Origin: Pseudomonas fulva 12-X
Lineage (GTDB): Bacteria > Pseudomonadota > Gammaproteobacteria > Pseudomonadales > Pseudomonadaceae
DNA length: 64,000 nucleotides
NCBI RefSeq assembly: GCF_000213805.1
Contig: NC_015556.1
Span: 3,983,001-4,047,000, forward strand
Reading direction: 5' to 3'
Position numbers and translations under genes: made by a program. Of this stretch, positions 7,535 to 32,226 are shown in pieces. Within the stretch, counting starts at the first letter, position 1. Each line of letters begins with the position of its first letter. Under the pieces are notes generated by a model. That model was not told where the DNA came from and made no database searches. It saw only the letters and a program-made list of their open reading frames with translations.

Positions 7535-7802
7535 ATTCTCACCGGCCGCTTCTGCACTGTAGCCGTCTCTTTACGTCGCCTTAAAAGATCGGCTGCCGTG
7601 ACAGCTCAGGCATTAACGCGGCAAGCACTGGCCGCCACCACGCACACGCCCCGTGAGCGCGATCCAATGCGGCATCGCATCGGCAATGTGGCAAAGGATC
7701 GCAAACGGGTTATTAGCAGCAAACCAGATGATCTTGTAGAAAAAAACCGGAGTGCGGCATGCTCCATCGACACACCGCTTCACACCTGTCGACAGGACAT
7801 TC

Positions 7803-9401
7803 ATGGACAAGACCGTATTCAAGCACTTGCTACTGACCACCGCACTGCTGGCCTGTGCGCCAATGGCCCAGGCCGCCAGCACCCTGGTGTACTGCTCCGA
7901 GGCCAGCCCGGCCGGCTTCGACCCCAGCCAGTACACCAGCGGCACGGATTTCGATGCGTCGGCGGAAACCGTGTTCAACCGCCTCACCCAGTTCAAGCGC
8001 GGCGGCACCGAGGTCGAACCGGGCCTGGCCACCGAATGGCAGGTGGCCGATGACGGGCTGAGTTACACCTTCCACCTGCGCAAGGGTGTGAAATTCCATA
8101 CCACCGACTACTTCACGCCGAGCCGAGACTTCAACGCCGACGACGTGCTGTTCACCTTCAACCGCCTGCTTGACCCCGAGCAGCCGTTTCGCAAGGCCTA
8201 TCCTTCGGAGTCGCCCTACTTCACCGACATGGGCCTGAACACCACGATCAAGAGCGTGGAAAAGCTCGGCGACTACACCGTGCGCTTCAATCTCAACAAC
8301 GTCGATGCCGCTTTCGTGCAGAACCTGGCGATGAGCTTCGCCTCGATCCAGTCGGCCGAGTACGCCGCCAAGCTGCTCAAGGAAGGCAAGGCCGGCGAGA
8401 TCAACCAGAAGCCGATCGGCACCGGGCCGTTCGTGTTCAAGCGCTACCAGAAAGATTCCAGCATCCGCTACACCGCCAACCGGCAGTACTGGAAGCCCGA
8501 AGACGTGAAGCTCGACAACCTGATCTTCTCGATCAACACCGACGCCGCCGTGCGCCTGCAGAAGCTCAGGGTCGGCGAATGCCAGGTCAGCGGCTACCCA
8601 CGCCCCGAAGACATCGAGCTGGCCGAGAAGGACCCGAACCTCAAGGTACTCAGCCAGCCGGGCTTCAACCTGGGCTTCCTGGCCTACAACGTCACCCACA
8701 AACCACTCGACCAGCTCAAGGTACGCCAGGCCCTGGACATGGCCATCGACAAGCCGGCGATCATCAAGGCCGTTTACCGCAGTGCCGGGCAAGTGGCTGA
8801 GAACGCCCTGCCGCCTGGCCAGTGGGGCTTCGACCCGAACATCAAGGACGCCCCGCACGATCCGCAAAAGGCCCGGCAACTGCTCAAGGAAGCCGGCGTC
8901 GCCCCAGGCACGCAGGTCAACCTGTGGGCCATGACCGTACAGCGCGCCTCCAACCCCAACGCCAGGCTCTCGGCGCAGATGATTCAGGCCGACTGGGACA
9001 AGATCGGCATCAAGGCCAATATCGTCAGCTACGAATGGGGCGAGTACATCAAGCGCGCCAAGGCCGGCGAGCACGACGTGATGATCTACGGCTGGACCGG
9101 CGACAACGGTGACCCGGACAACTGGCTGGGTGTGCTGTACAGCTGCGCAGCGGTCAAGGGCAGCAACTACGCCAAGTGGTGCGACCCGGCCTATGACAAG
9201 CTGGTCACCCAGGCCAAGACCACCAGCAACCGCGACGAGCGCATCAAGCTGTATCAGCAGGCCCAGCAGATCCTCAAGGCTCAGGTACCGATCACCCCGA
9301 TCGCCAATTCCCGGGTATTCCAGCCCATGCGCAAGGAAGTGCAGGATTTCCGCATCAGCCCGTTCGGCCTGACGCCCTTCTACGGCGTCAGCATCGACTG
9401 A
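7803..9401 (+). CDS. dppA2: Di-/tripeptide ABC transporter periplasmic binding protein DppA2
   Basis: 532 residues, SBP_bac_5 family, clearly a paralogue of DppA1 (same TFHLRKGVKFHTTDYF block, NQKPIGTGPFVFKRYQKD, GWTGDNGDPDNWLGVLYSC). The ATG at 7803 has AGGA upstream and gives a good signal peptide (MDKTVFKHLLLTTALLACA..AQA). The frame stays open 17 codons further upstream, but those codons do not look like coding sequence. It is convergent with mdpA, with a shared bidirectional terminator between them. Changes in the ligand-binding half against DppA1 suggest a different peptide range. Confidence 0.92.
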   Translation: MDKTVFKHLLLTTALLACAPMAQAASTLVYCSEASPAGFDPSQYTSGTDFDASAETVFNRLTQFKRGGTEVEPGLATEWQVADDGLSYTFHLRKGVKFHTTDYFTPSRDFNADDVLFTFNRLLDPEQPFRKAYPSESPYFTDMGLNTTIKSVEKLGDYTVRFNLNNVDAAFVQNLAMSFASIQSAEYAAKLLKEGKAGEINQKPIGTGPFVFKRYQKDSSIRYTANRQYWKPEDVKLDNLIFSINTDAAVRLQKLRVGECQVSGYPRPEDIELAEKDPNLKVLSQPGFNLGFLAYNVTHKPLDQLKVRQALDMAIDKPAIIKAVYRSAGQVAENALPPGQWGFDPNIKDAPHDPQKARQLLKEAGVAPGTQVNLWAMTVQRASNPNARLSAQMIQADWDKIGIKANIVSYEWGEYIKRAKAGEHDVMIYGWTGDNGDPDNWLGVLYSCAAVKGSNYAKWCDPAYDKLVTQAKTTSNRDERIKLYQQAQQILKAQVPITPIANSRVFQPMRKEVQDFRISPFGLTPFYGVSID

Positions 9402-24387: not shown

Positions 24388-25992
24388 TCACTTCTCCCGA
24401 ATGGACTGCCAGCTCACGCCGAAGCGCGCCAGGTACTTGCGCAGGCGATCCGCGTCGTTGGGCTGGGCCTTGGCCTGGCGACTGATGTCGAACAAACGCC
24501 TGCCGGCCTCGGACAGACTACCCGCCTGCCGACAGATATCGATCACTGCCTGCAGTTGCAGACGGTCGAACAGATCGATATCACCTGCGGCCTCGCCCAA
24601 CAGAGTCGAAAGGTCATCCTCCGCCGCCGAAGCGCCCCAGGCGCGCCGCAGCCGCTCGATCTCTTCCTGTACCTGACCCTCGTCGATGCGCCCGCTGTCG
24701 GCCAGGGTCGCCATGCGCGTGATCGAGGCCGACAGCTCGCGGAAGTTGCCCTGCCAGGCGGCTTCGCCGGAGCTGGCGAAGGCCAGGTAGCGGCGCCGCG
24801 CTTCCAGGTTGAAGCGCACCATTCGCCCTTGTTCGCGCGCATGGCGCTCGAGCTCGAAATCGATGTTCGGCTCGATGTCTTCGCGGCGCCCGGCCAGGCC
24901 CGGTAGATCGAAGGTCCACAGATTGACGCGCGCATAGAGGTCTTCACGAAACAGCCCTTCGGCGACCCGTGCGCGCAAGTCGCGATGGGTGCCGGCGATG
25001 AGCAGAAAATCGCTGCTCACCTCCTTGTCCGCGCCCATGGGAAAGAAGCGCTTTTCCTCGACGGCCTTGAGCAGCATGGCCTGCTCGTCCAGGCCCAGTT
25101 CGCCGATCTCGTCGAGAAACAGCATGCCGCCATCGGCGGCGCGCAGCAGGCCATCGCGGGCATTTTGCGCACCGGTGAAGGCGCCCTTGATATGACCGAA
25201 CAACGCCGACATGGCGCCGTCGCCGCGCAGGGTCGCGCAATTGACCTCGACGAAGCGGCCATCGACCAGATGACGGCTGCGCTTGAGTTCGTAGACGCGC
25301 CGGGCCAGGAACGACTTGCCCGCTCCGGTCGGGCCGATCAGCAGCATCGGTGCCGAGGAGCGTACGGCGACCCGCTCGATCTGCTCGATGGAGCGGTTGA
25401 ATGCCGCGTTGCGCGTGGCGATGCCCGACTTGAGAAACGCCAGCCCCTCCAATCGCTCATGCTGGAAGCGTGTAGCGATACGGTCGTACCGCGACAGGTC
25501 GAGGTCGATCAGCGCATGGGTACCGGTGACCTGCGCCTGCTCATCACGCTTGCGCGCCGGCGAGGTCTGCACCAACCGCGCCGGCAGGTAGCGCGCCTCG
25601 GTGAGCAGGAACCAGCAGATCTGCGCCACGTGGGTCCCGGTGGTGATGTGTACCAGGTAGTCCTCACGCTCGGTATCGAAGGCATAGCCGCTGGTGAAGT
25701 CATGCAGCGCGCCATACACCTCTTCGAAATCCCAGGGGTTGCGCAGATGCATCGGTTGCAGGCGCACCTCGGTTTCCGGGGAGATCTGCTCGATGTCGGC
25801 GCGAATGCGCTCGGCCAGGCTGATGTCGCGCGCATCGACGCCGTGAATCAGCTCCAGGCGATCGATCAGCAAATCCGCCTGCTGACACAGCCCGATGCTC
25901 GGCCGCCATTTGTTCCAGCGATTGGCGCCCTTGCCGACCCGATCCAGGGTGGCGCCGATGAAGCCGATGGCGACGGTACGTTTGCGGGCCAT
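24388..25992 (-). CDS. rtcR: RtcR, sigma-54 activator of the RNA repair operon
   Basis: 534 residues. The N-terminal RtcR/CARF-like sensor domain (about 1-180: TVAIGFIGATLDRVGKGANRW...) is followed by an AAA+ domain with Walker A GPTGAGKS, the sigma-54-contact loop GAFTGA (in HIKGAFTGAQ), Walker B MLFLDEIGEL, and a C-terminal Fis-like helix (GSLSEAGRRLF). The ATG at 25992 has a full GGAGGA ribosome site; the open frame continues 16 codons further without one. It is divergent from the rsr-Y RNA-rtcBA operon. In E. coli the CARF domain responds to RNA ends with cyclic phosphate; the ligand here is inferred. Confidence 0.94.
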   Translation of the reverse strand: MARKRTVAIGFIGATLDRVGKGANRWNKWRPSIGLCQQADLLIDRLELIHGVDARDISLAERIRADIEQISPETEVRLQPMHLRNPWDFEEVYGALHDFTSGYAFDTEREDYLVHITTGTHVAQICWFLLTEARYLPARLVQTSPARKRDEQAQVTGTHALIDLDLSRYDRIATRFQHERLEGLAFLKSGIATRNAAFNRSIEQIERVAVRSSAPMLLIGPTGAGKSFLARRVYELKRSRHLVDGRFVEVNCATLRGDGAMSALFGHIKGAFTGAQNARDGLLRAADGGMLFLDEIGELGLDEQAMLLKAVEEKRFFPMGADKEVSSDFLLIAGTHRDLRARVAEGLFREDLYARVNLWTFDLPGLAGRREDIEPNIDFELERHAREQGRMVRFNLEARRRYLAFASSGEAAWQGNFRELSASITRMATLADSGRIDEGQVQEEIERLRRAWGASAAEDDLSTLLGEAAGDIDLFDRLQLQAVIDICRQAGSLSEAGRRLFDISRQAKAQPNDADRLRKYLARFGVSWQSIREK

Positions 25993-26165: not shown

Positions 26166-26180
26166 TGGCACAGCCACTGC
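26166..26180 (+). promoter_or_regulatory. Sigma-54 (-24/-12) promoter of the RNA repair operon
   Basis: TGGCACAGCCACTGC: the GG and GC dinucleotides are separated by exactly 10 bp. Transcription should begin near 26192, about 29 bp before rsr. Confidence 0.9.
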
Positions 26181-26220: not shown

Positions 26221-27771
26221 ATGGCCAACTTCAATCTGTTCAATACCCGGCAAACCCACCTGCCGGCCAGCGACACACTGAACAACCAGCAAGCGCCGGC
26301 CTATAGCTACAAGCCCAAGCACAAGCTGGCCCAGCTGGCCGTTACCGGTTGCCTGAACAACACCTACTACGCCGATGCTGAAACCCAGCTGGCCGAAGTG
26401 CTGAAGCTGGTCGCCGAACTGGACGCTCGCTACGTGGCCAAGGCTGCGGTATATGCCCGCAAGAAAGGCCACATGAAGGACATGCCGGCCCTGCTGCTTG
26501 CAGCCCTGGCGGCACAGCGCTCGAGCCTGGTGCCGGTGCTGTTCGCCGAGGTGGTGGATAACGGCAAGATGCTGCGCACCTTCGTGCAGATCCTGCGCAG
26601 CGGCGTGACCGGTCGCAAGTCGCTCGGCTCGCAGCCCAAGCGCCTGGTACAGACCTGGCTGAACAGCGCCAGCGAACGCCAGCTGCTGCAGGCCGCGGTC
26701 GGCAACCAGCCGTCACTGGCGGACGTGGTAAAGATGGTTCACCCCAAGCCGGCCGATGCGTGGCGCGAAGCGTTCTTCGCCTGGCTGATCGGTAAGCCGA
26801 CGGATGCCGCCGTCCTGCCACCGCTGACCCGTGCTCTGCTGGCGTTTCGCAGCGGCGCCAGCAGCGAACTGCCGGACGTACCCTTCCAGTTGCTCGGCAA
26901 CGAGACGCTGAGCGCGGCGCAATGGGCAGAGCTAGCCGGCCGCATGGGCTGGCAGGCACTGCGCATGAACCTGAACACGCTGCTGCGCCACGGCGCATTC
27001 GAGATCAGGGGCTGCGCGGAGATGGTCGCAGCGCGATTGGCCGACGCAGAGGCGGTAGCCAAGGCGCGGGTTTACCCGTACCAGTTGCTGTCGGCTTATC
27101 GCATGACCGGAGATGGCGTGCCGCTGGTGGTGCGTGAGGCGCTGCAGGACGCACTGGAGTTGTCGCTGGCCAACGTGCCGGCACTGAGCGGCAACGTGGT
27201 GGTGTGCCCGGACGTATCCGGCTCGATGGCAAGCCCGGTAACCGGTTACCGCCAGGGTGCGACAACGGCGGTGCGCTGCATCGATGTAGCGGCCCTGGTG
27301 GCGGCGGCAATCCTGCGCAAGCAACCACAAGCTCAGGTGCTGCCATTCGAGAACAAGGTGGTGAGGGTGACGCTCAACCCGCGTGACAGCGTGATGAGCA
27401 ACGCGCAGAAACTGGCTGCGATCGGCGGCGGAGGAACCAGTTGCTCGGCACCGCTCAAGCAACTGGCGGACGCCAAGGCGAAAGTGGATACGCTGATTCT
27501 GGTTTCCGACAACGAATCCTGGATCGACGCCCGCCGCCATGGCGCCACGGAAACGATGCGCCAGTGGGAGCGGATCAAGCACATCAACCCGCAAGCGCGG
27601 CTGATCTGTATCGACCTGCAGCCCCATGGCACCACCCAGGCGCCGGACCGCGCGGACACCCTGAATGTCGGCGGCTTCAGCGACGCGGTGTTCGACGTGG
27701 TGGCGCAGTTCGCCAGCGGCACATTCGGCGCCGGCCACTGGGTCGACGCCATCGAAAAGATGGAAATATGA
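26221..27771 (+). CDS. rsr: Ro/TROVE-domain RNA-binding protein (Rsr, Ro60 orthologue)
   Basis: 516 residues. The N-terminal TROVE region (about 1-310) is made of helical HEAT-like repeats (LKLVAELDARYVAKAAVYARKKGHMKDMPALLLAALA; VVDNGKMLRTFVQILRSGVTGRKSLG). The C-terminal von Willebrand A domain has a complete MIDAS motif (CPDVSGSMASP, DxSGS). The family forms a ring that binds Y RNAs on its outer surface and structured RNA ends in its centre, and works with exonucleases in RNA quality control. It is the first gene behind the sigma-54 promoter, directly upstream of five Y-RNA-like genes, so protein and RNA partners are produced from one transcript. Confidence 0.93.
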   Translation: MANFNLFNTRQTHLPASDTLNNQQAPAYSYKPKHKLAQLAVTGCLNNTYYADAETQLAEVLKLVAELDARYVAKAAVYARKKGHMKDMPALLLAALAAQRSSLVPVLFAEVVDNGKMLRTFVQILRSGVTGRKSLGSQPKRLVQTWLNSASERQLLQAAVGNQPSLADVVKMVHPKPADAWREAFFAWLIGKPTDAAVLPPLTRALLAFRSGASSELPDVPFQLLGNETLSAAQWAELAGRMGWQALRMNLNTLLRHGAFEIRGCAEMVAARLADAEAVAKARVYPYQLLSAYRMTGDGVPLVVREALQDALELSLANVPALSGNVVVCPDVSGSMASPVTGYRQGATTAVRCIDVAALVAAAILRKQPQAQVLPFENKVVRVTLNPRDSVMSNAQKLAAIGGGGTSCSAPLKQLADAKAKVDTLILVSDNESWIDARRHGATETMRQWERIKHINPQARLICIDLQPHGTTQAPDRADTLNVGGFSDAVFDVVAQFASGTFGAGHWVDAIEKMEI

Positions 27772-27775
27772 GAAC

Positions 27776-27801
27776 GCCCTCGACCGATTGGGGTCGAGGG
27801 C
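27776..27801 (+). other. Perfect 10-bp hairpin between rsr and the Y RNA array
   Basis: GCCCTCGACC, six bases, then its exact reverse complement, five bases after the rsr stop. No T-tract follows, so it should allow read-through; it could protect the rsr mRNA end or mark a processing site upstream of the first Y RNA. Confidence 0.6.
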
Positions 27802-27820
27802 AACCGATCAACGATTCGAG

Positions 27821-27879
27821 CGTTTTCGAATGCCGAGGGGACTACATCTGAGGCGTCTCCTCATTTCTTGTCGATAACG
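27821..27879 (+). ncRNA. Y-RNA-like element 1 (stem-loop only)
   Basis: 59 nt. Lower stem CGTTTTCGA against TCGATAACG (one mismatch), then the asymmetric internal loop shared by all five copies (ATGCC on the 5' side, eight bases ending TTG on the 3' side), then an upper stem GAGGGGAC against GTCTCCTC. The terminal loop carries the ACTACA-like stretch but no tRNA-like part. The paired CGAATG / TTGTCG signature matches the bacterial Ro-binding motif. It is the shortest member and could be a degenerate copy. Confidence 0.7.
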
Positions 27880-27886
27880 AGCGAAC

Positions 27887-27974
27887 GGCACGAATGCCAG
27901 TGGCTGTACATCGGTTATGCCGGTTTCGATACCGGCCCGTGGCAACACGGAACAGTCACTTATCTTGTCGTGCC
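27887..27974 (+). ncRNA. Y-RNA-like element 2 (T-arm plus acceptor minihelix)
   Basis: 88 nt. Lower stem GGCACGA / TCGTGCC, internal loop ATGCCA / TTATCTTG, upper stem GTGGCTG / CAGTCAC, then a T-arm-like hairpin (GCCGG, loop TTTCGATA, CCGGC) directly followed by CCGTG-GCAA-CACGG, a GNRA-capped helix at the position of the acceptor stem. The D arm present in copies 3-5 is missing. So it is an intermediate in tRNA mimicry between copy 1 and copies 3-5. Confidence 0.8.
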
Positions 27975-27990
27975 ACCTGATTCAGAGTTT

Positions 27991-28122
27991 TGCGACGAAT
28001 GCCGGTGGAACTACACCCTTCCACGGTCGAGATGCGGGTTCGAATCCCGTCGGCTCCATCACTGGGGGGCCGTAGTTCAATGGCAGAACACGAAAATACG
28101 TTTCACCACCTTTGTCGTCGCA
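27991..28122 (+). ncRNA. Y-RNA-like element 3 (YrlA type, permuted tRNA-like module)
   Basis: 132 nt, the largest copy. Lower stem TGCGACGA / TCGTCGCA, internal loop ATGCC / ACCTTTG, upper stem GGTGGAA / TTTCACC. The tRNA-like module runs T arm (GCGGG-TTCGAAT-CCCGT, 28034-28050), acceptor 3' strand CGGCTCC, linker, acceptor 5' strand GGGGCCG (7 bp with one G-T), TA, and D arm (GTTC-AATGGCA-GAAC, 28075-28089). That is a tRNA with its termini joined and the anticodon arm replaced by the Y stem. The closing stem followed by TCTTTTTC also looks like an intrinsic terminator. Confidence 0.9.
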
Positions 28123-28131
28123 TCTTTTTCA

Positions 28132-28149
28132 GGCCCACCACGGTGGGCC
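28132..28149 (+). other. Hairpin between Y RNA elements 3 and 4
   Basis: GGCCCAC, four bases (CACG), then its exact reverse complement, just after the T-rich 3' end of element 3 and directly before element 4. Possibly a processing signal. Confidence 0.45.
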
Positions 28150-28150
28150 G

Positions 28151-28256
28151 GCAGCGAATGCCTTGGGTACTACATTGTGTCGCGGGTTCGAGCCCCGTCA
28201 GCCGCAAGGCTGTAGCTCAGTCGATAGAGCAAATGTGCCCATCAACTCGTCGCTGC
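28151..28256 (+). ncRNA. Y-RNA-like element 4 (YrlA type, permuted tRNA-like module)
   Basis: 106 nt. Lower stem GCAGCGA / TCGCTGC, internal loop ATGCC(T) / TCAACTCG, upper stem TGGGTAC / GTGCCCA. tRNA-like module: T arm GCGGG-TTCGAGC-CCCGT, acceptor CAGCC-GCAA-GGCTG (5 bp closed by a GNRA tetraloop), TA, D arm GCTC-AGTCGATA-GAGC. The closed acceptor loop shows that the tRNA termini are sealed. The T-loop keeps TTCGA, as needed for pseudouridylation at the usual site. Confidence 0.88.
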
Positions 28257-28258
28257 AC

Positions 28259-28280
28259 GGAGGCCAGCCTCCACTTTTTT
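28259..28280 (+). terminator. Intrinsic-terminator-like hairpin inside the Y RNA array
   Basis: GGAGG-CCAG-CCTCC followed by ACTTTTTT, between elements 4 and 5. If active it would reduce read-through to element 5 and rtcB, letting Y RNAs 1-4 outnumber the downstream mRNA. Confidence 0.6.
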
Positions 28281-28288
28281 GATTGACC

Positions 28289-28403
28289 CGGCGAATGCCG
28301 GTGGAACTACAGGACGTGAAGGTTGCGGGTTCGACTCCCGCCCCGGCGACGGGTAGCTCAACTGGATAGAGCAACGCGCATGTTCCACCAACGATCGTCG
28401 CCG
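28289..28403 (+). ncRNA. Y-RNA-like element 5 (YrlA type, permuted tRNA-like module)
   Basis: 115 nt. Lower stem CGGCGA / TCGCCG, internal loop ATGCC / AACGATCG, long upper stem GGTGGAAC / GTTCCACC. tRNA-like module: T arm GCGGG-TTCGACT-CCCGC, acceptor CCCG-GCGA-CGGG (4 bp with GNRA loop), TA, D arm GCTC-AACTGGATA-GAGC with the GG pair of a normal D-loop. It ends 39 bp before rtcB and has no T-run, so it is probably cut out of the rtcB transcript. Confidence 0.88.
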
Positions 28404-28442
28404 CACTGCAAACGCTGGCACGGCCAGCCCGAATACGAGTGA

Positions 28443-29675
28443 ATGATGATGCAAACCAAGACCTACAACCTGCTGGAAGTCGCCAACGGCAAGCCGATCA
28501 AACTGTGGACGCAAGGCGTTCCGGTAGAGGAGGACGCCAAGCAGCAGTTGATGAACACCGCGAAGATGCCCTTCATCTTCAAGCACCTGGCCGTGATGCC
28601 GGACGTGCACCTGGGCAAGGGTTCGACCATTGGCAGCGTGATCCCCACGATCGGTGCGATCATCCCGGCAGCGGTCGGGGTGGACATCGGCTGCGGGATG
28701 ATCGCCGCGCGCACCTCGCTGACCGCCTCCGACCTGCCGGATAACCTGGCCGGTCTGCGCGCCGCCATCGAGAAGGCCGTGCCCCACGGGCGAAGCAATA
28801 CCCGTGGAGGCCGAGACCGGGGCGCCTGGGAAAACGTGCCGGAGATGGCCGACCATGCCTGGTCGGCGCTGAGCGAGCGCTTCAAGGCGATCACCGACAA
28901 GTACCCGCGGCTGGAGAAGACCAACAACCGCAAGCACCTGGGAACCCTGGGAACCGGTAACCACTTCGTCGAGGTGTGCCTGGACGAAGCGAACCGGGTC
29001 TGGTTCATGCTGCACAGCGGATCGCGCGGCGTGGGTAACGCCATCGGCAACCTGTTCATCGAACTGGCCCAGGCCGATATGCGCCAGCACATCGCCAATC
29101 TGCCGGACCGCGACCTGGCCTACTTCGAGGAAGGCAGCCAGCACTTCGCCGACTACGTGGAGGCGGTGGGCTGGGCCCAAGACTTCGCCAAGCAGAACCG
29201 CGCGCTGATGATGCACGCGGTGGTCGCGGCGGCCCGCGGGGTGATCGCCAAGCCGTTCGAGGTCGCCCTGGAAGCGGTCAACTGTCACCACAACTACGTG
29301 CAGAAGGAACGTCACTTCGGTGAAGAGGTGCTGGTGACCCGCAAAGGCGCGGTGTCGGCGAAGAAAGGCGAGCTGGGCATCATCCCCGGCTCCATGGGCG
29401 CCAAGAGTTTCATCGTGCGCGGCCTGGGCAACGAGGAAGCGTTCTGCTCGTGCAGCCACGGCGCCGGCCGCACCATGAGCCGCACCAAGGCGAAAAAGCT
29501 GTTCACCGTGGAAGACCAGATCAAGGCCACGGCCCACGTCGAATGCCGCAAGGACGCCGACGTGATCGACGAAATCCCGATGGCCTACAAGGACATCGAC
29601 CAGGTCATGGACGCCCAGCGCGAGCTGGTAGAAGTGATGCACACCTTGCGGCAGGTGGTGTGCGTAAAAGGATAA
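28443..29675 (+). CDS. rtcB: RtcB, RNA-splicing ligase (3'-phosphate/cyclic-phosphate to 5'-OH)
   Basis: 410 residues, the bacterial size. Metal and guanylate residues are present: VDIGCGMIAART (Mn-binding Cys), GTGNHFVEV, VNCHHNYVQKE, and CSCSHGAGRTMSR, which carries the His that takes GMP. It seals RNA breaks that carry 2',3'-cyclic or 3' phosphate ends, using GTP. Three consecutive ATG codons (28443, 28446, 28449) leave the exact start open and no strong ribosome site is seen, so translation may be weak or depend on processing of the upstream Y RNA. It lies 39 bp after Y RNA element 5. Confidence 0.95.
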   Translation: MMMQTKTYNLLEVANGKPIKLWTQGVPVEEDAKQQLMNTAKMPFIFKHLAVMPDVHLGKGSTIGSVIPTIGAIIPAAVGVDIGCGMIAARTSLTASDLPDNLAGLRAAIEKAVPHGRSNTRGGRDRGAWENVPEMADHAWSALSERFKAITDKYPRLEKTNNRKHLGTLGTGNHFVEVCLDEANRVWFMLHSGSRGVGNAIGNLFIELAQADMRQHIANLPDRDLAYFEEGSQHFADYVEAVGWAQDFAKQNRALMMHAVVAAARGVIAKPFEVALEAVNCHHNYVQKERHFGEEVLVTRKGAVSAKKGELGIIPGSMGAKSFIVRGLGNEEAFCSCSHGAGRTMSRTKAKKLFTVEDQIKATAHVECRKDADVIDEIPMAYKDIDQVMDAQRELVEVMHTLRQVVCVKG

Positions 29676-29684
29676 GGTGAGGCC

Positions 29685-30263
29685 ATGCTGCAACCGATGC
29701 AAAGCCAGCGACTCGACGCACTGCGCACCCGCCTGGACGAGGCGGGCTGTGTGTTCGATTTCGTGGTGACCACGCTCGACCCGACCGCCACACCTGGCGA
29801 GGCGGAGCATCGGCAGGTCCTGGAGTTGCTGTTCGAGGCCATCCAAGCACGCGCCCGGGTCTGGCAGCAGAAGCTGATCGCCCAGGATGCCCGTTACGCA
29901 AAACAGCAATGGCCGGAGTTGACGGTGGATATCGCCCAAGCCAGCCCACGGCCACTCACTGCCGATGCTATCCGTGAGCTGGCCAGCGAAGATGGCCTGC
30001 TGTGCCGCGCCTTCCGCGATCCGCCCTACGCCACCAGGTTACAGATGACGGATTTTCGCGAATGGCTGCAAATGCTGCGGTTGTATCCCGATGAAGGGCT
30101 GCAGGTGTTCGACTGGGTCGGCAATCCAGATACCGAGCCGCGGCGCAGCACCTGGAGCGACTATTTCGACGACGGCAAGGAGTGGTGGGGCATCTGGTGC
30201 CTCACGCTGTACAACCCGCGACGTCGGACATTGTCCGCGCTGGCCGCCAGCGCGACAGACTAG
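29685..30263 (+). CDS. Unknown protein of the RNA repair operon, 192 residues
   Basis: I do not recognise a family. It begins MLQPMQSQRLDALRTRLDEAGCVFDFVVTTLDP and contains a helix-rich middle (EHRQVLELLFEAIQARARVWQQKLIAQDARYAKQQWPEL). The acidic and aromatic C-terminal part, DWVGNPDTEPRRSTWSDYFDDGKEWWGIWCLTLYNP, looks like a small folded domain. No signal peptide or membrane helix is visible. It starts nine bases after rtcB and ends 16 bases before rlaP, so it is cotranscribed and probably has a role in the same RNA-repair response. Confidence 0.8.
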   Translation: MLQPMQSQRLDALRTRLDEAGCVFDFVVTTLDPTATPGEAEHRQVLELLFEAIQARARVWQQKLIAQDARYAKQQWPELTVDIAQASPRPLTADAIRELASEDGLLCRAFRDPPYATRLQMTDFREWLQMLRLYPDEGLQVFDWVGNPDTEPRRSTWSDYFDDGKEWWGIWCLTLYNPRRRTLSALAASATD

Positions 30264-30279
30264 ACAAGGATGCAAAGAC

Positions 30280-31068
30280 ATGGACATGCAACAACGCCAC
30301 CCCCTCAGCGACGCCATGCGCGCGCGGGTGCTGGCTGAACTCGAACGGGTCGAGCGCGAGCGCAACGTCAAGGTGCTGTACGCCTGCGAATCCGGCAGCC
30401 GCGCCTGGGGTTTCGCCTCGACGGACAGCGACTACGACGTGCGCTTCGTCTACGTGGAAAAACCTGACTGGTTCGTTCAGGTGGATGCTGGTCGCGACGT
30501 GATCGAGCGCCCGCTGGACGACGAGCTGGACGTCAGCGGCTGGGAGCTGCGCAAGACCTTAGGGCTGCTGCGCAAATCCAACCCGACGCTGCTGGAGTGG
30601 CTCGACTCGCCCCTGGTGTACCGCCAGGAAGATCAGGCCACGGCACGCCTGCGCGAACTGGCCGAGCATTTCTACAGCCCGCCGGCGGCGCGTAACCACT
30701 ACCTGTCGATGGCCAGAAAGAATTTTCGCGGCTACCTGCAGGACGAGACGGTGCGCCTCAAGAAGTACTTCTACGTACTGCGCCCGCTGCTCGCCGTGCT
30801 ATGGATCGACCAGGGCCGTGGCCGGCCGCCGATGACCTTCGCCGATCTGCTGCAGACGGTGGATGATGCGCCGCTTCTAGCCGAAGTGGACGAGCTGCTG
30901 GCTCTCAAGCGCAGCGCCGACGAGTCGGCCTATGGCCCGCGTCGCCCTGCCCTGCATGCCTTTATCGAGGCGCAGCTGGAGCGGCCGGTGCCGGCGCTGC
31001 CGCGTACCCAGGCGGACAGCGGCCTGCTCGACGCCTACCTGCGCGAAATAGTCAGCCGCTATGCCTGA
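30280..31068 (+). CDS. rlaP: RlaP, polymerase-beta-fold nucleotidyltransferase of RNA repair loci
   Basis: 262 residues. The nucleotidyltransferase signature is complete: SGSRAWGFASTDSDYDVRFVYV (GS followed by DxD), matching the family called RNA repair pathway DNA polymerase beta family. The helical remainder (RKTLGLLRKSNPTLLEWLDSPLVYR; MARKNFRGYLQDETVRLKKYFYVLRPLLAVLWI) is typical. The ATG at 30280 has AAGGA upstream; the frame stays open 63 codons earlier, but that part overlaps the preceding gene. Its partner genes rtcB and rtcA suggest that it adds nucleotides to damaged RNA ends; this is inferred. Confidence 0.88.
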   Translation: MDMQQRHPLSDAMRARVLAELERVERERNVKVLYACESGSRAWGFASTDSDYDVRFVYVEKPDWFVQVDAGRDVIERPLDDELDVSGWELRKTLGLLRKSNPTLLEWLDSPLVYRQEDQATARLRELAEHFYSPPAARNHYLSMARKNFRGYLQDETVRLKKYFYVLRPLLAVLWIDQGRGRPPMTFADLLQTVDDAPLLAEVDELLALKRSADESAYGPRRPALHAFIEAQLERPVPALPRTQADSGLLDAYLREIVSRYA

Positions 31069-31075
31069 CCCACGT

Positions 31076-31185
31076 TCGTAGCCCGGGTCGAGCGAAGCGA
31101 CACCCGGGGCGATCTCGGGCCACAGTCGAGAGGGACGCGGAGCGTCCTGATGGACAGTCCCACGCAGAGCGTGGGAACGATCACG
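31076..31185. repeat. Cluster of short extragenic hairpins between rlaP and rtcA
   Basis: Three inverted repeats in 110 bp: GTAGCCCGGGT with ACCCGGGGC, GGACGCGGAGCGTCC, and TCCCACGCAGAGCGTGGGA. The last is a frequent Pseudomonas intergenic repeat. They may set the relative mRNA level of rtcA. Confidence 0.6.
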
Positions 31186-31200
31186 ATCAAAGGATTCACC

Positions 31201-32226
31201 ATGAACAAGGATATTCTCGAACTCGACGGCGTCATCGGTGGCGGGCAGGTGCTGCGTACGGCGCTGAGCCTGTCGATGATCACCGGCACGCCGTTTCGTA
31301 TCGTCAACATTCGCGCCAGGCGCAGCCGCCCGGGCCTGCTGCGTCAGCACCTGACCGCCGTGCTCGCCGCTGCCGAAATCAGCAACGCCGAGGTTGAGGG
31401 CGCCGAGCTGCACGCCACCAACCTGGTGTTTCGCCCCGGCCCGATCCGTGGTGGCGAGTACCGTTTCGCCATCGGCTCGGCGGGTAGCTGCACGCTGGTG
31501 CTGCAAACCGTTCTGCCAGCCTTGCTGCAGGCCGCAGAGCCGAGCCGCGTGCAGATCAGCGGCGGCACCCACAATCCGGCCGCGCCGCCGTTCGATTTTC
31601 TCGACCAGGCCTGGCTGCCGCTGCTGCGACGTATGGGTGGCCGGGTCGAGCTGCAACTGCATCGCCATGGTTTCGTGCCCGCCGGTGGTGGCGCGCTGGA
31701 AGCGTTCATCCAGCCGTCGTCGCTGACGCCATTGCACCTGTGCGAGCGGGGCGCGGTCATCGAGCAGCGCGCCGACGTGCTGCTGGCCGGCATTCCCGGC
31801 CACGTGGGCGAGCGCGAGCTGGCGCGCGTCGGCAAACGCCTGCAATGGCCGGACGCCAACCTGCACTGCACCTGGCTGGACCAGCGGCACGGCCCGGGCA
31901 ATATCCTGATGTTGACGGTGGCCTGCGAGCAGCTCACCGAGCAGTTCTGCGCCTTCGGCCAGAACGGCGTGCGCGCCGAGGCGGTGGCCGACCGTGCCAT
32001 CGAACCGCTGCGACAGTGGCTGACCAGCGGCGCGGCGGTGGCCGAGCACCTGGCCGACCAGTTGCTGCTACCGATGGCGCTGGCCGGTAGCGGCAGCTTC
32101 ACCACCACGCACCTGAGCGAGCACCTGCAGAGCAATATCCAGGTGATCGAAGCCTTCTGCCCGGTGACCGTTCGTTGCAGGTCGGTGGGCAAGGCATTGC
32201 GGGTCGAGGTGAGTAGCCGCGCCTGA
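31201..32226 (+). CDS. rtcA: RtcA, RNA 3'-terminal phosphate cyclase
   Basis: 341 residues. The N-terminal LELDGVIGGGQVLRTALSLSMITGTPFRIVNIRARRSRPGLLRQH block and RIEL-type C-terminal region with the AMP-accepting His (SLTPLHLCERG; ADQLLLPMALAGSGSFTTTHLSEHLQSN) are as in E. coli RtcA. It converts RNA 3'-phosphate to 2',3'-cyclic phosphate through an AMP adduct. The ATG at 31201 has AAAGGA upstream. It is the last gene of the RtcR-controlled operon and meets ettA tail to tail across a terminator. Confidence 0.94.
   Translation: MNKDILELDGVIGGGQVLRTALSLSMITGTPFRIVNIRARRSRPGLLRQHLTAVLAAAEISNAEVEGAELHATNLVFRPGPIRGGEYRFAIGSAGSCTLVLQTVLPALLQAAEPSRVQISGGTHNPAAPPFDFLDQAWLPLLRRMGGRVELQLHRHGFVPAGGGALEAFIQPSSLTPLHLCERGAVIEQRADVLLAGIPGHVGERELARVGKRLQWPDANLHCTWLDQRHGPGNILMLTVACEQLTEQFCAFGQNGVRAEAVADRAIEPLRQWLTSGAAVAEHLADQLLLPMALAGSGSFTTTHLSEHLQSNIQVIEAFCPVTVRCRSVGKALRVEVSSRA

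Follow-up and report, generated by a model that had tools for sequence, protein, structure and literature searches.

Are five Y-RNA-like elements that follow one another behind a single Ro60 gene copies of one RNA, or do they carry different heads on a common stem? This question is raised by a locus of Pseudomonas fulva 12-X in which such elements lie between rsr, the gene for the bacterial Ro60 protein (Rsr), and the RNA ligase gene rtcB. We analyzed a stretch of 64,000 nucleotides of this genome (NCBI RefSeq assembly GCF_000213805.1, contig NC_015556.1, positions 3,983,001 to 4,047,000 of the forward strand), hereafter the window; positions are counted from its first base. An earlier note on this DNA had placed five Y-RNA-like elements at 27821-28403, and all five (Y1 to Y5) are present there as judged by a motif detector and by a covariance model, R1. 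We propose, holding this reading as a whole to be quite possible and short of probable, that the locus encodes five predicted Y RNAs with one Rsr-type stem and different heads, of which Y3 is a permuted cloverleaf with an anticodon arm and would serve as an Rsr-held bait or decoy for tRNA-recognizing enzymes, above all anticodon nucleases.

Five Y elements and the predicted permuted cloverleaf of Y3

A stem-plus-motif detector, which requires the core CGAATG, an upper stem, and a lower stem closed by TCG and which was written after the elements had been read, gave five matches in 27772-28442. Among 2000 dinucleotide shuffles of this stretch, 1880 gave no match, 117 gave one, and 3 gave two. 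The detector is not specific by itself because there are seven matches in the rest of the window, three on the + strand and four on the - strand, mostly weaker. The 27 rows of the covariance model R1 are long Y RNAs from related loci, one of them the window's Y3. At E ≤ 0.001 it matched exactly Y1 to Y5 in the 64-kb window and nothing elsewhere (scores in Table 1). All five elements have a lower stem ending in CGA, a GAAUGC internal loop, a 3' strand with TTG-TCG or CG-TCG, and an upper stem (detector; R1 E ≤ 6.6e-7), a combination that is the motif of bacterial Y RNAs.

The elements have in common the frame GAAUGCC / TTG- or CG-TCG and differ in their heads. The stems co-vary between copies, as had been claimed: the lower stems are UCGA, GGCACGA, UGCGACGA, GCAGCGA, and CGGCGA, each with its complement. 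The earlier account of the elements stands for this common stem frame and has to be corrected at Y1, where the lower stem consists by eye of 4 contiguous pairs, a U-U mismatch, and 4 more pairs. Y3, Y4, and Y5 carry tRNA-like modules and are not interchangeable, and these modules and the anticodon-armed cloverleaf of Y3 had been overlooked.

The expectation that a covariance model would recover the array was confirmed with R1 and only in part with the models of Rfam. The YrlA model (RF02553, gathering score 69) accepts Y5 (95.6 bits) and Y4 (70.0 bits). Y3 (56.3 bits) and Y2 (27.0 bits) fall below the gathering score and Y1 has no match, and Y1-Y3 are therefore not classed as YrlA, although Y3 is still YrlA-like in outline. 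The gathering score of 97 of the YrlB model (RF02565) is reached by none of the elements; Y2 scores 18.5 bits, Y1 has no match, and Y3 to Y5 are not among the matches listed. The module of a T arm, a closed acceptor stem, and a D arm in permuted order is found in Y3, Y4, and Y5, all three of which align across the whole RF02553 model. Y4 and Y5 are, by this comparison, predicted to be ordinary YrlA RNAs that follow the known YrlA plan.

Read in tRNA order, Y3 has an acceptor stem of 7 bp, U8 and A9, a D stem of 4 bp, A26, an anticodon stem of 5 bp with a 7-nt loop, a variable loop of 4 nt, and a T arm of 5 bp. The anticodon stem is split 2+3: its outer two pairs link bases behind the D arm to 28028-28029, its inner three make up the hairpin 28015-28027, with the Y stem entering at the junction of the two parts. 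The loop, CUUCCAC, displays the anticodon UCC at 28020-28022. Under strict tRNA geometry, the arm has the 5-bp stem, the 7-nt loop, U33, the purine at 37, and the distance from the D and T arms that characterize a tRNA anticodon arm. Y3 does not have the characteristics of a translation adaptor: ARAGORN found no tRNA in the window, and the acceptor ends of Y3 are joined by a loop. When un-permuted joins of Y3 were submitted to ARAGORN, tRNA-Gly(tcc) was returned in 25 of the 38 called joins, a result that serves as illustration only because fewer, mixed joins were also called for many arm-less modules. Y3 is thus predicted to be a rearranged but complete tRNA cloverleaf.

The stems of the cloverleaf show compensatory changes. 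In a first alignment, A3, with 18 distinct rows, 17 of 37 pairs were changed on both sides (shuffled mean 6.4), one anticodon-stem pair among them, and in a second, A4, 16 of 34 pairs were so changed, four of the five anticodon-stem pairs among them; both counts arise partly by construction because the rows were chosen for having these stems. RNAalifold, run with no structure imposed, recovered the inner three pairs of the anticodon arm in both alignments and the outer two in neither.

The nearest to un-permuted Y3 among the 38 tRNAs of the same genome is tRNA-Gly(UCC), which agrees at 54 of 72 aligned positions and still ranks first with the loop masked, by a small margin over other tRNAs (0.67 versus 0.64). 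Y3 differs from it in its permuted order, its joined acceptor ends, the lack of a CCA end, and a different anticodon stem. Y3 as a copy of one tRNA was considered and rejected; this fits only the window's Gly(UCC) type, and across types the body does not reliably track the anticodon in a ranking that used only the 38 tRNAs of the window's genome, also for the types of other species. A further tRNA-like segment extends from Y3 into Y4 (28066-28206). It combines the Y3 D arm with the Y4 T arm and reaches 27.8 bits against a cut-off of 29 for an ordinary tRNA, and this pseudo-tRNA is a possible cause of false tRNA annotation in such arrays.

YrlA (RF02553; crystal structure 6CU1) resembles Y3 in the GAAUGC / TTGTCG stem and in the permuted T arm, closed acceptor, and D arm. 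Y3 adds to this plan the anticodon arm, twelve bases of which Rfam aligns as an insertion, and a full 7-bp acceptor stem. The arms of YrlA are named as D, T, and acceptor (PMC8394870), and YrlA is described as superposing on tRNA as a circular permutation (PMC11472068). The permuted tRNA domain of YrlA is already known. No report of an anticodon arm in a Y RNA was found in the titles, abstracts, and excerpts covered by a search of open-access literature, a coverage too narrow to establish priority for the arm.

Anticodon arms and loop turnover in related loci

The comparison set consisted of 81 rsr loci, the window and 80 related loci (labels L...), 42 of them from Pseudomonas and 39 from other bacteria. 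At three loci (L042, L044, and L048) rtcB was not found, and up to 1.8 kb of the sequence that follows rsr was used instead of the rsr-rtcB gap. R1 gave 274 matches at E ≤ 0.001, all within the gap or its substitute. Parsing of all 274 yielded 78 full cloverleaves, 64 of them unique. A 5-bp/7-nt arm is present in 28 of the 64, with 1.52 expected by shuffling, and the arm together with U33 and a purine at 37 is present in 24, with 0.18 expected; the latter combination was found in 30 of the 81 loci. Four ways of splitting the stem were allowed in this test and two in the test of other families, viral contigs, and single records described below. On 65 parsed cloverleaves (51 unique), the strict test found the arm in 22 unique cloverleaves versus 0.34 expected from shuffling of the segment that precedes the T arm. 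It had been put in the place of a first, loose test (45 of 65), which let other hairpins through. As a positive control, 30 of 38 real tRNAs that were permuted in silico pass the test in the form applied to other families and viral contigs.

Arms are also found in other families of the class and in viral contigs. Three genomes from such families, absent from R1 and represented by one locus each, have the arm in 4 of 7 cloverleaves (0.25 expected), with U33 in 3 of the 4. A viral scan with a single Rsr protein gave no relative, and a scan with an Rsr alignment gave 16 loci; on viral contigs, the arm is present in 4 of 10 cloverleaves (0.30 expected), with U33 and a purine at 37 in 3 of the 4. 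In a Salmonella record and a Rhizobium record the count is 1 of 3 (0.06 expected), the Rhizobium loop being UCGUUAA, without U33. None of the 3 Y RNAs in the Salmonella record has a 7-nt arm by this test. Under looser criteria that need no cloverleaf, a loop that has both U33 and a purine 37 occurs in 23 of 195 unique segments from bacteria (2.06 expected) and in 6 of 22 from viruses (0.36 expected).

The loops found include, with anticodons in brackets, CUUCCAC (UCC), CUUUUAA (UUU), CUACGAA (ACG), CUGUUAA (GUU), CUGUCAC (GUC), CUUCUAA (UCU), and UUUGCAA (UGC). Changes on the rsr tree at positions 34, 35, and 36 numbered 4, 3, and 4 in A3 (17 rows) and 5, 3, and 3 in A4 (10 rows). The mean over these positions is 3.67 in each alignment, compared with 1.28 (A3) and 1.26 (A4) at other unpaired sites, and random site triplets reach this level in 86 of 20,000 draws for A3 and 40 of 20,000 for A4. 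At positions 32, 33, and 37 there were 0, 0, and 0 changes in A3 and 1, 1, and 2 in A4. U33 and A37 are largely kept, while the frequency of change at positions 34-36 is about three times the average for unpaired sites. Between P. otitidis (L031) and P. alcaligenes MRY13-0052 (L032), the 131-nt Y3 differs only at 34 and 36 and rsr differs at 92 of 1548 positions.

Several related arrays have features of their own. On two viral contigs, six Y RNA matches each adjoin a viral rsr gene (L165 3095-3837 and L154 6008-7816), and one of those on L165 (3163-3247) has an anticodon-like loop, CUGAUAA, with T and D arms absent by eye. L004 has the most similar Rsr among the relatives, and in its array other Y RNAs stand in the place of the first and fourth members (7605-7717 and 7971-8075), a sign of module exchange between Y arrays. 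The segment AACGGTCCTAAG is present in Y RNAs of L050 (a metagenome-assembled genome of Burkholderiales, 124 nt) and L081 (Undibacterium pigrum, 126 nt); it looks like a piece of 23S rRNA, and a match of 12-13 bases is near chance level over so many Y RNAs.

The array and its operon

The features of the locus are collected in Table 1.

Table 1. Features of the Y RNA array and the surrounding operon in the window
Feature	Position	Strand	Evidence
rtcR, divergent from rsr; sigma-54 activator with an RtcR domain of the CARF type	24388..25989	-	Pfam RtcR 284.5 bits, Sigma54_activat 162.7 bits, on translation of 24391-25989
Sigma-54 (-24/-12)-like promoter TGGCAC-N5-CTGC, upstream of rsr in the rtcR-rsr gap (putative function)	26166..26180	+	sole match in window; 0.71 expected per window by chance
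rsr (bacterial Ro60)	26221..27771	+	Pfam vWA_Ro60 77.3 bits, TROVE 40.3 bits
10-bp hairpin directly 3' of rsr stop codon	27776..27801	+	-23.3 kcal/mol; 0 of 200 shuffles equally stable
Y1, short Y RNA without tRNA-like module (by eye)	27821..27879	+	R1 27824-27876, 36.4 bits, E 2.3e-8
Y2, Y RNA with T-arm-like and acceptor-like hairpins, D arm absent (by eye)	27887..27974	+	R1 31.9 bits, E 6.6e-7; single-sequence fold z -5.15
Y3, Y RNA with complete circularly permuted tRNA cloverleaf (predicted)	27991..28122	+	R1 132.3 bits (own row of model); cloverleaf parse; compensatory changes
Y3 anticodon arm, hairpin ACC-CUUCCAC-GGU plus CG 28028-28029 paired with CG 28091-28092 behind D arm	28015..28029	+	strict tRNA geometry
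Y3 T arm, 5 bp, loop UUCGAAU	28034..28050	+	cloverleaf parse
Y3 acceptor-like 7-bp stem with an 8-nt closing loop and without free CCA end	28051..28072	+	parse; compensatory changes
Y3 D arm GUUC-AAUGGCA-GAAC	28075..28089	+	parse; compensatory changes
Spacer hairpin GGCCCACC/GGUGGGCC, Y3-Y4 gap	28132..28149	+	by eye
Y4, YrlA-type: T, short closed acceptor, and D arms; no anticodon loop	28151..28256	+	RF02553 70.0 bits; R1 61.8 bits
Terminator-like hairpin with U run, Y4-Y5 gap	28259..28280	+	terminator scan: 2 in region versus 2.9 in shuffles, not significant alone
Y5, YrlA-type: T, short closed acceptor, and D arms; no anticodon loop	28289..28403	+	RF02553 95.6 bits; R1 81.3 bits
Small hairpin GCUGGC/GCCAGC, Y5-rtcB gap	28414..28428	+	by eye
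rtcB RNA ligase	28443..29675	+	Pfam RtcB 438.4 bits
rlaP, RNA-repair nucleotidyltransferase family	30247..31068	+	Pfam RlaP 323 bits
rtcA RNA 3'-phosphate cyclase	31150..32226	+	Pfam RTC 262.6 bits

The genes are arranged in the order rtcR (divergent), a sigma-54-like site at 26166, rsr, the five Y elements, rtcB, an open reading frame of 192 amino acids (29685-30263), rlaP, and rtcA (Pfam and pattern search). The earlier placement of five Y-RNA-like genes behind rsr in an operon of rtcR, rsr, rtcB, and rtcA is borne out by Pfam and R1. The promoter pattern searched for was the sigma-54 -24/-12 consensus. A divergent rtcR, a sigma-54-like site, and co-directional rtcB and rtcA form the layout of an RNA repair operon probably controlled by RtcR. 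The array begins at 27821 and rsr stops at 27771, so that the Y RNA genes adjoin that of Rsr. A Pfam search gave no match for the 192-amino-acid reading frame between rtcB and rlaP. Rsr of the window is 90-95% identical to Rsr of Pseudomonas sp. URMO17WK12:I2, P. alcaliphila, P. guguanensis, P. chengduensis, P. khazarica, and P. flavescens, among others.

Seven arrays, the window and six relatives, were compared by eye. Complementary arms lie behind the rsr stop codon at the same place in all seven, and the terminator-like stem with its T run in the Y4-Y5 gap is likewise found in all seven, the stem being imperfect in L007. This hairpin could uncouple the expression of Y5 and rtcB from that of rsr and Y1-Y4. 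The hairpin in the Y3-Y4 spacer is present in the window, L009, L010, and L041 and absent in L004, L005, and L007.

The earlier note regarded five Y RNAs as an unusual expansion, and this idea is rejected on the per-locus counts. Five is the commonest number among the 42 Pseudomonas rsr loci by R1 (five in 18, three in 15, two in 5, and four in 4). R1 may miss short members, and with detector matches added the Pseudomonas counts become five in 19, three in 17, four in 3, and two in 3. Across all 81 loci, R1 gives three Y RNAs per gap in 28, five in 19, four in 14, two in 11, one in 7, ten in 1, and none in 1; the 39 loci from outside Pseudomonas range from 0 to 10. The ten Y RNA matches are those of Andreprevotia lacus (L077 7858-9905), in an rsr-rtcB gap of 3 kb, where two D arms resemble tRNA-Leu by eye.

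On whole genomes, R1 has some match at E ≤ 0.001 in 397 of 398 Pseudomonas genomes. In the window's own genome, the one case checked, a match of 33.1 bits overlaps two tRNA genes. Only matches above 50 bits were counted. These occur in 36 of the 398 genomes, and the array is thus patchy within the genus Pseudomonas. At E ≤ 1e-12, matches were obtained in 4 of 274 genomes of the class, the window's own included.

The rsr-yrlBA-rtcBA operon of Salmonella has the same order of divergent rtcR, rsr, Y RNAs, rtcB, and rtcA (PMC7790460, PMC9879122), with yrlB and yrlA as the Y RNAs named. The window differs in having five Y RNAs instead of the two named and in the insertion of rlaP and the 192-amino-acid reading frame between rtcB and rtcA. 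YrlB (RF02565) is the first Y RNA behind rsr in the Salmonella record, as is Y1 here, but Y1 has no match to its model, and the score of Y2 lies far from the cut-off (above). A third Y-RNA-like element was observed before rtcB in L170 (925-1033; OR851267.1, filed as a Salmonella phage, which reads like Salmonella chromosome), with an R1 score of 41.2 bits and an E of 1.2e-11. It follows YrlB (105.5 bits) and YrlA (70.9 bits), has a T arm and an acceptor-like hairpin by eye, and has no Rfam match at gathering level.

Possible functions of Y3

The Salmonella operon is induced by tRNAs cut in the anticodon loop, RtcR binds 5' fragments with a cyclic phosphate, and YrlA has been suggested as a competitive inhibitor of the nuclease (PMC7790460); on the role of Y RNAs in RNA repair operons, the authors gave only possibilities (PMC7790460). 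The role of competitor or bait suits a Y RNA with a true anticodon loop better than it suits YrlA. In P. fulva, transcription would start at the sigma-54 promoter once RtcR senses cut tRNAs, and the polycistronic RNA would be processed into separate Y RNAs, whose common stem would be bound by Rsr. Y4 and Y5 may be tRNA mimics of the PNPase type, in the manner reported for YrlA. Y3 would occupy nucleases, or be cut by them, in place of a cellular tRNA, and RtcB and RtcA, encoded nearby, would reseal cut ends. Fast change at positions 34-36, with U33 and A37 largely kept, is the trace that may be expected from an arms race with nucleases that read the loop. Phage tRNAs predicted to resist anticodon nucleases provide a likeness, as their anticodon-loop changes are likewise tied to host anticodon nucleases (PMC10264068); the resistant phage RNAs described there are tRNAs, whereas RNAs of the Y3 type are permuted Y RNAs without a free CCA end.

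Several observations weigh against the proposed reading. Some unpaired sites change as often as positions 34-36 or more often, namely columns 123, 125, 76, and 42 of A3 (5-6 changes) and column 135 of A4 (5 changes). The tRNA body does not reliably follow the loop: for 3 of 22 unique types, all of them Pseudomonas Gly(UCC), the best-ranked tRNA is the same isoacceptor, and for 6 of 22 it carries the same amino acid; the anticodons of five loops occur in none of the 38 tRNAs. Single-sequence folding favors other structures over the cloverleaf by 4.9-11.8 kcal/mol in the 19 rows of A3, and for the window's Y3 the cloverleaf has -43.5 kcal/mol versus a minimum free energy of -51.2 kcal/mol. In the place of the arm, a different hairpin is seen by eye in eight P. 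protegens-like loci, which are negative in the arm test. The best matches of 20 Pseudomonas genomes gave 18 cloverleaves with the arm in 8 and not in 10; one of the 8 is that of the window and some others match counted loci exactly, and in a subset of 8 of these 20 loci, looked at first, none had the arm. The arm tests were framed after the pattern had been seen, and the sequences of other families and viruses had been inspected before their test; the shuffles permuted single bases, and the sequences are related and hence not independent. The construction of the pairing counts, given above, belongs with these points. In Salmonella, fragments of YrlA were not detected while tRNAs were cut (PMC7790460), though none of the 3 Y RNAs of the Salmonella record has the 7-nt arm.

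Y3 may instead, like Y4 and Y5, merely tether PNPase to Rsr (RYPER), its arm completing the tRNA-like shape and going unread by nucleases. We regard this as possible and on balance doubtful. The tRNA-like domain of YrlA is reported to bind PNPase (PMC8394870), Y4 and Y5 of the same array have no arm, and U33 and A37 could be kept for the fold alone; a tether does not, however, predict the roughly threefold change at 34-36 while 33 and 37 largely stay, nor a viral Y RNA (L165 3163-3247) whose anticodon-like loop is accompanied, by eye, by neither a T arm nor a D arm. A role of Y3 as a sensor, in which a cut loop gives a 2',3'-cyclic-phosphate end that feeds RtcR, and the operon thereby reports nuclease action on its own RNA, appears unlikely. 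It would suit the RtcR-type operon in which Y3 sits and the binding of RtcR to 5' tRNA fragments with a cyclic phosphate (PMC7790460), but because of the permutation the 5' piece of a cut Y3 would be the Y stem and not a 5' tRNA half with a D arm, and no cut YrlA was detected in Salmonella (PMC7790460).

Still less likely, in our estimate, is that the arm is the relic of a captured tRNA gene, a hairpin that drifts neutrally. The recurrence of the 7-nt loop, U33, and A37 from Pseudomonas to betaproteobacteria and viruses speaks against drift, as does the compensated stem, even though Y arrays swap and replace modules (the first and fourth members of L004) and many Pseudomonas arrays lack the arm. 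Very improbable is a reading of the arms as chance hairpins found in related sequences. The post hoc framing of the tests, the relatedness of the sequences, and the single-base shuffles would favor it; against it stand 24 of 64 cloverleaves observed where 0.18 were expected, 4 of 7 where 0.25 were expected in genomes outside the model, and the recovery of the inner hairpin by RNAalifold in two alignments.

The bait reading can be extended to a separate class of Y RNAs in bacteria and phages that would hold real anticodon loops on an Rsr-held permuted scaffold, their anticodons evolving fast against anticodon nucleases, and that would act as sacrificial or competing baits made from a tRNA-repair operon; in this general form we put it forward as a rather doubtful, though serious, possibility. 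Letter-by-letter changes of the loop between close relatives would link Y RNAs, directly and in a testable way, to the anticodon cleavage by which such an operon is induced. If this is true, the tRNA mimicry of YrlA grows from three arms to a complete cloverleaf, and Y arrays may be seen as modular sets in which one common handle carries several heads.

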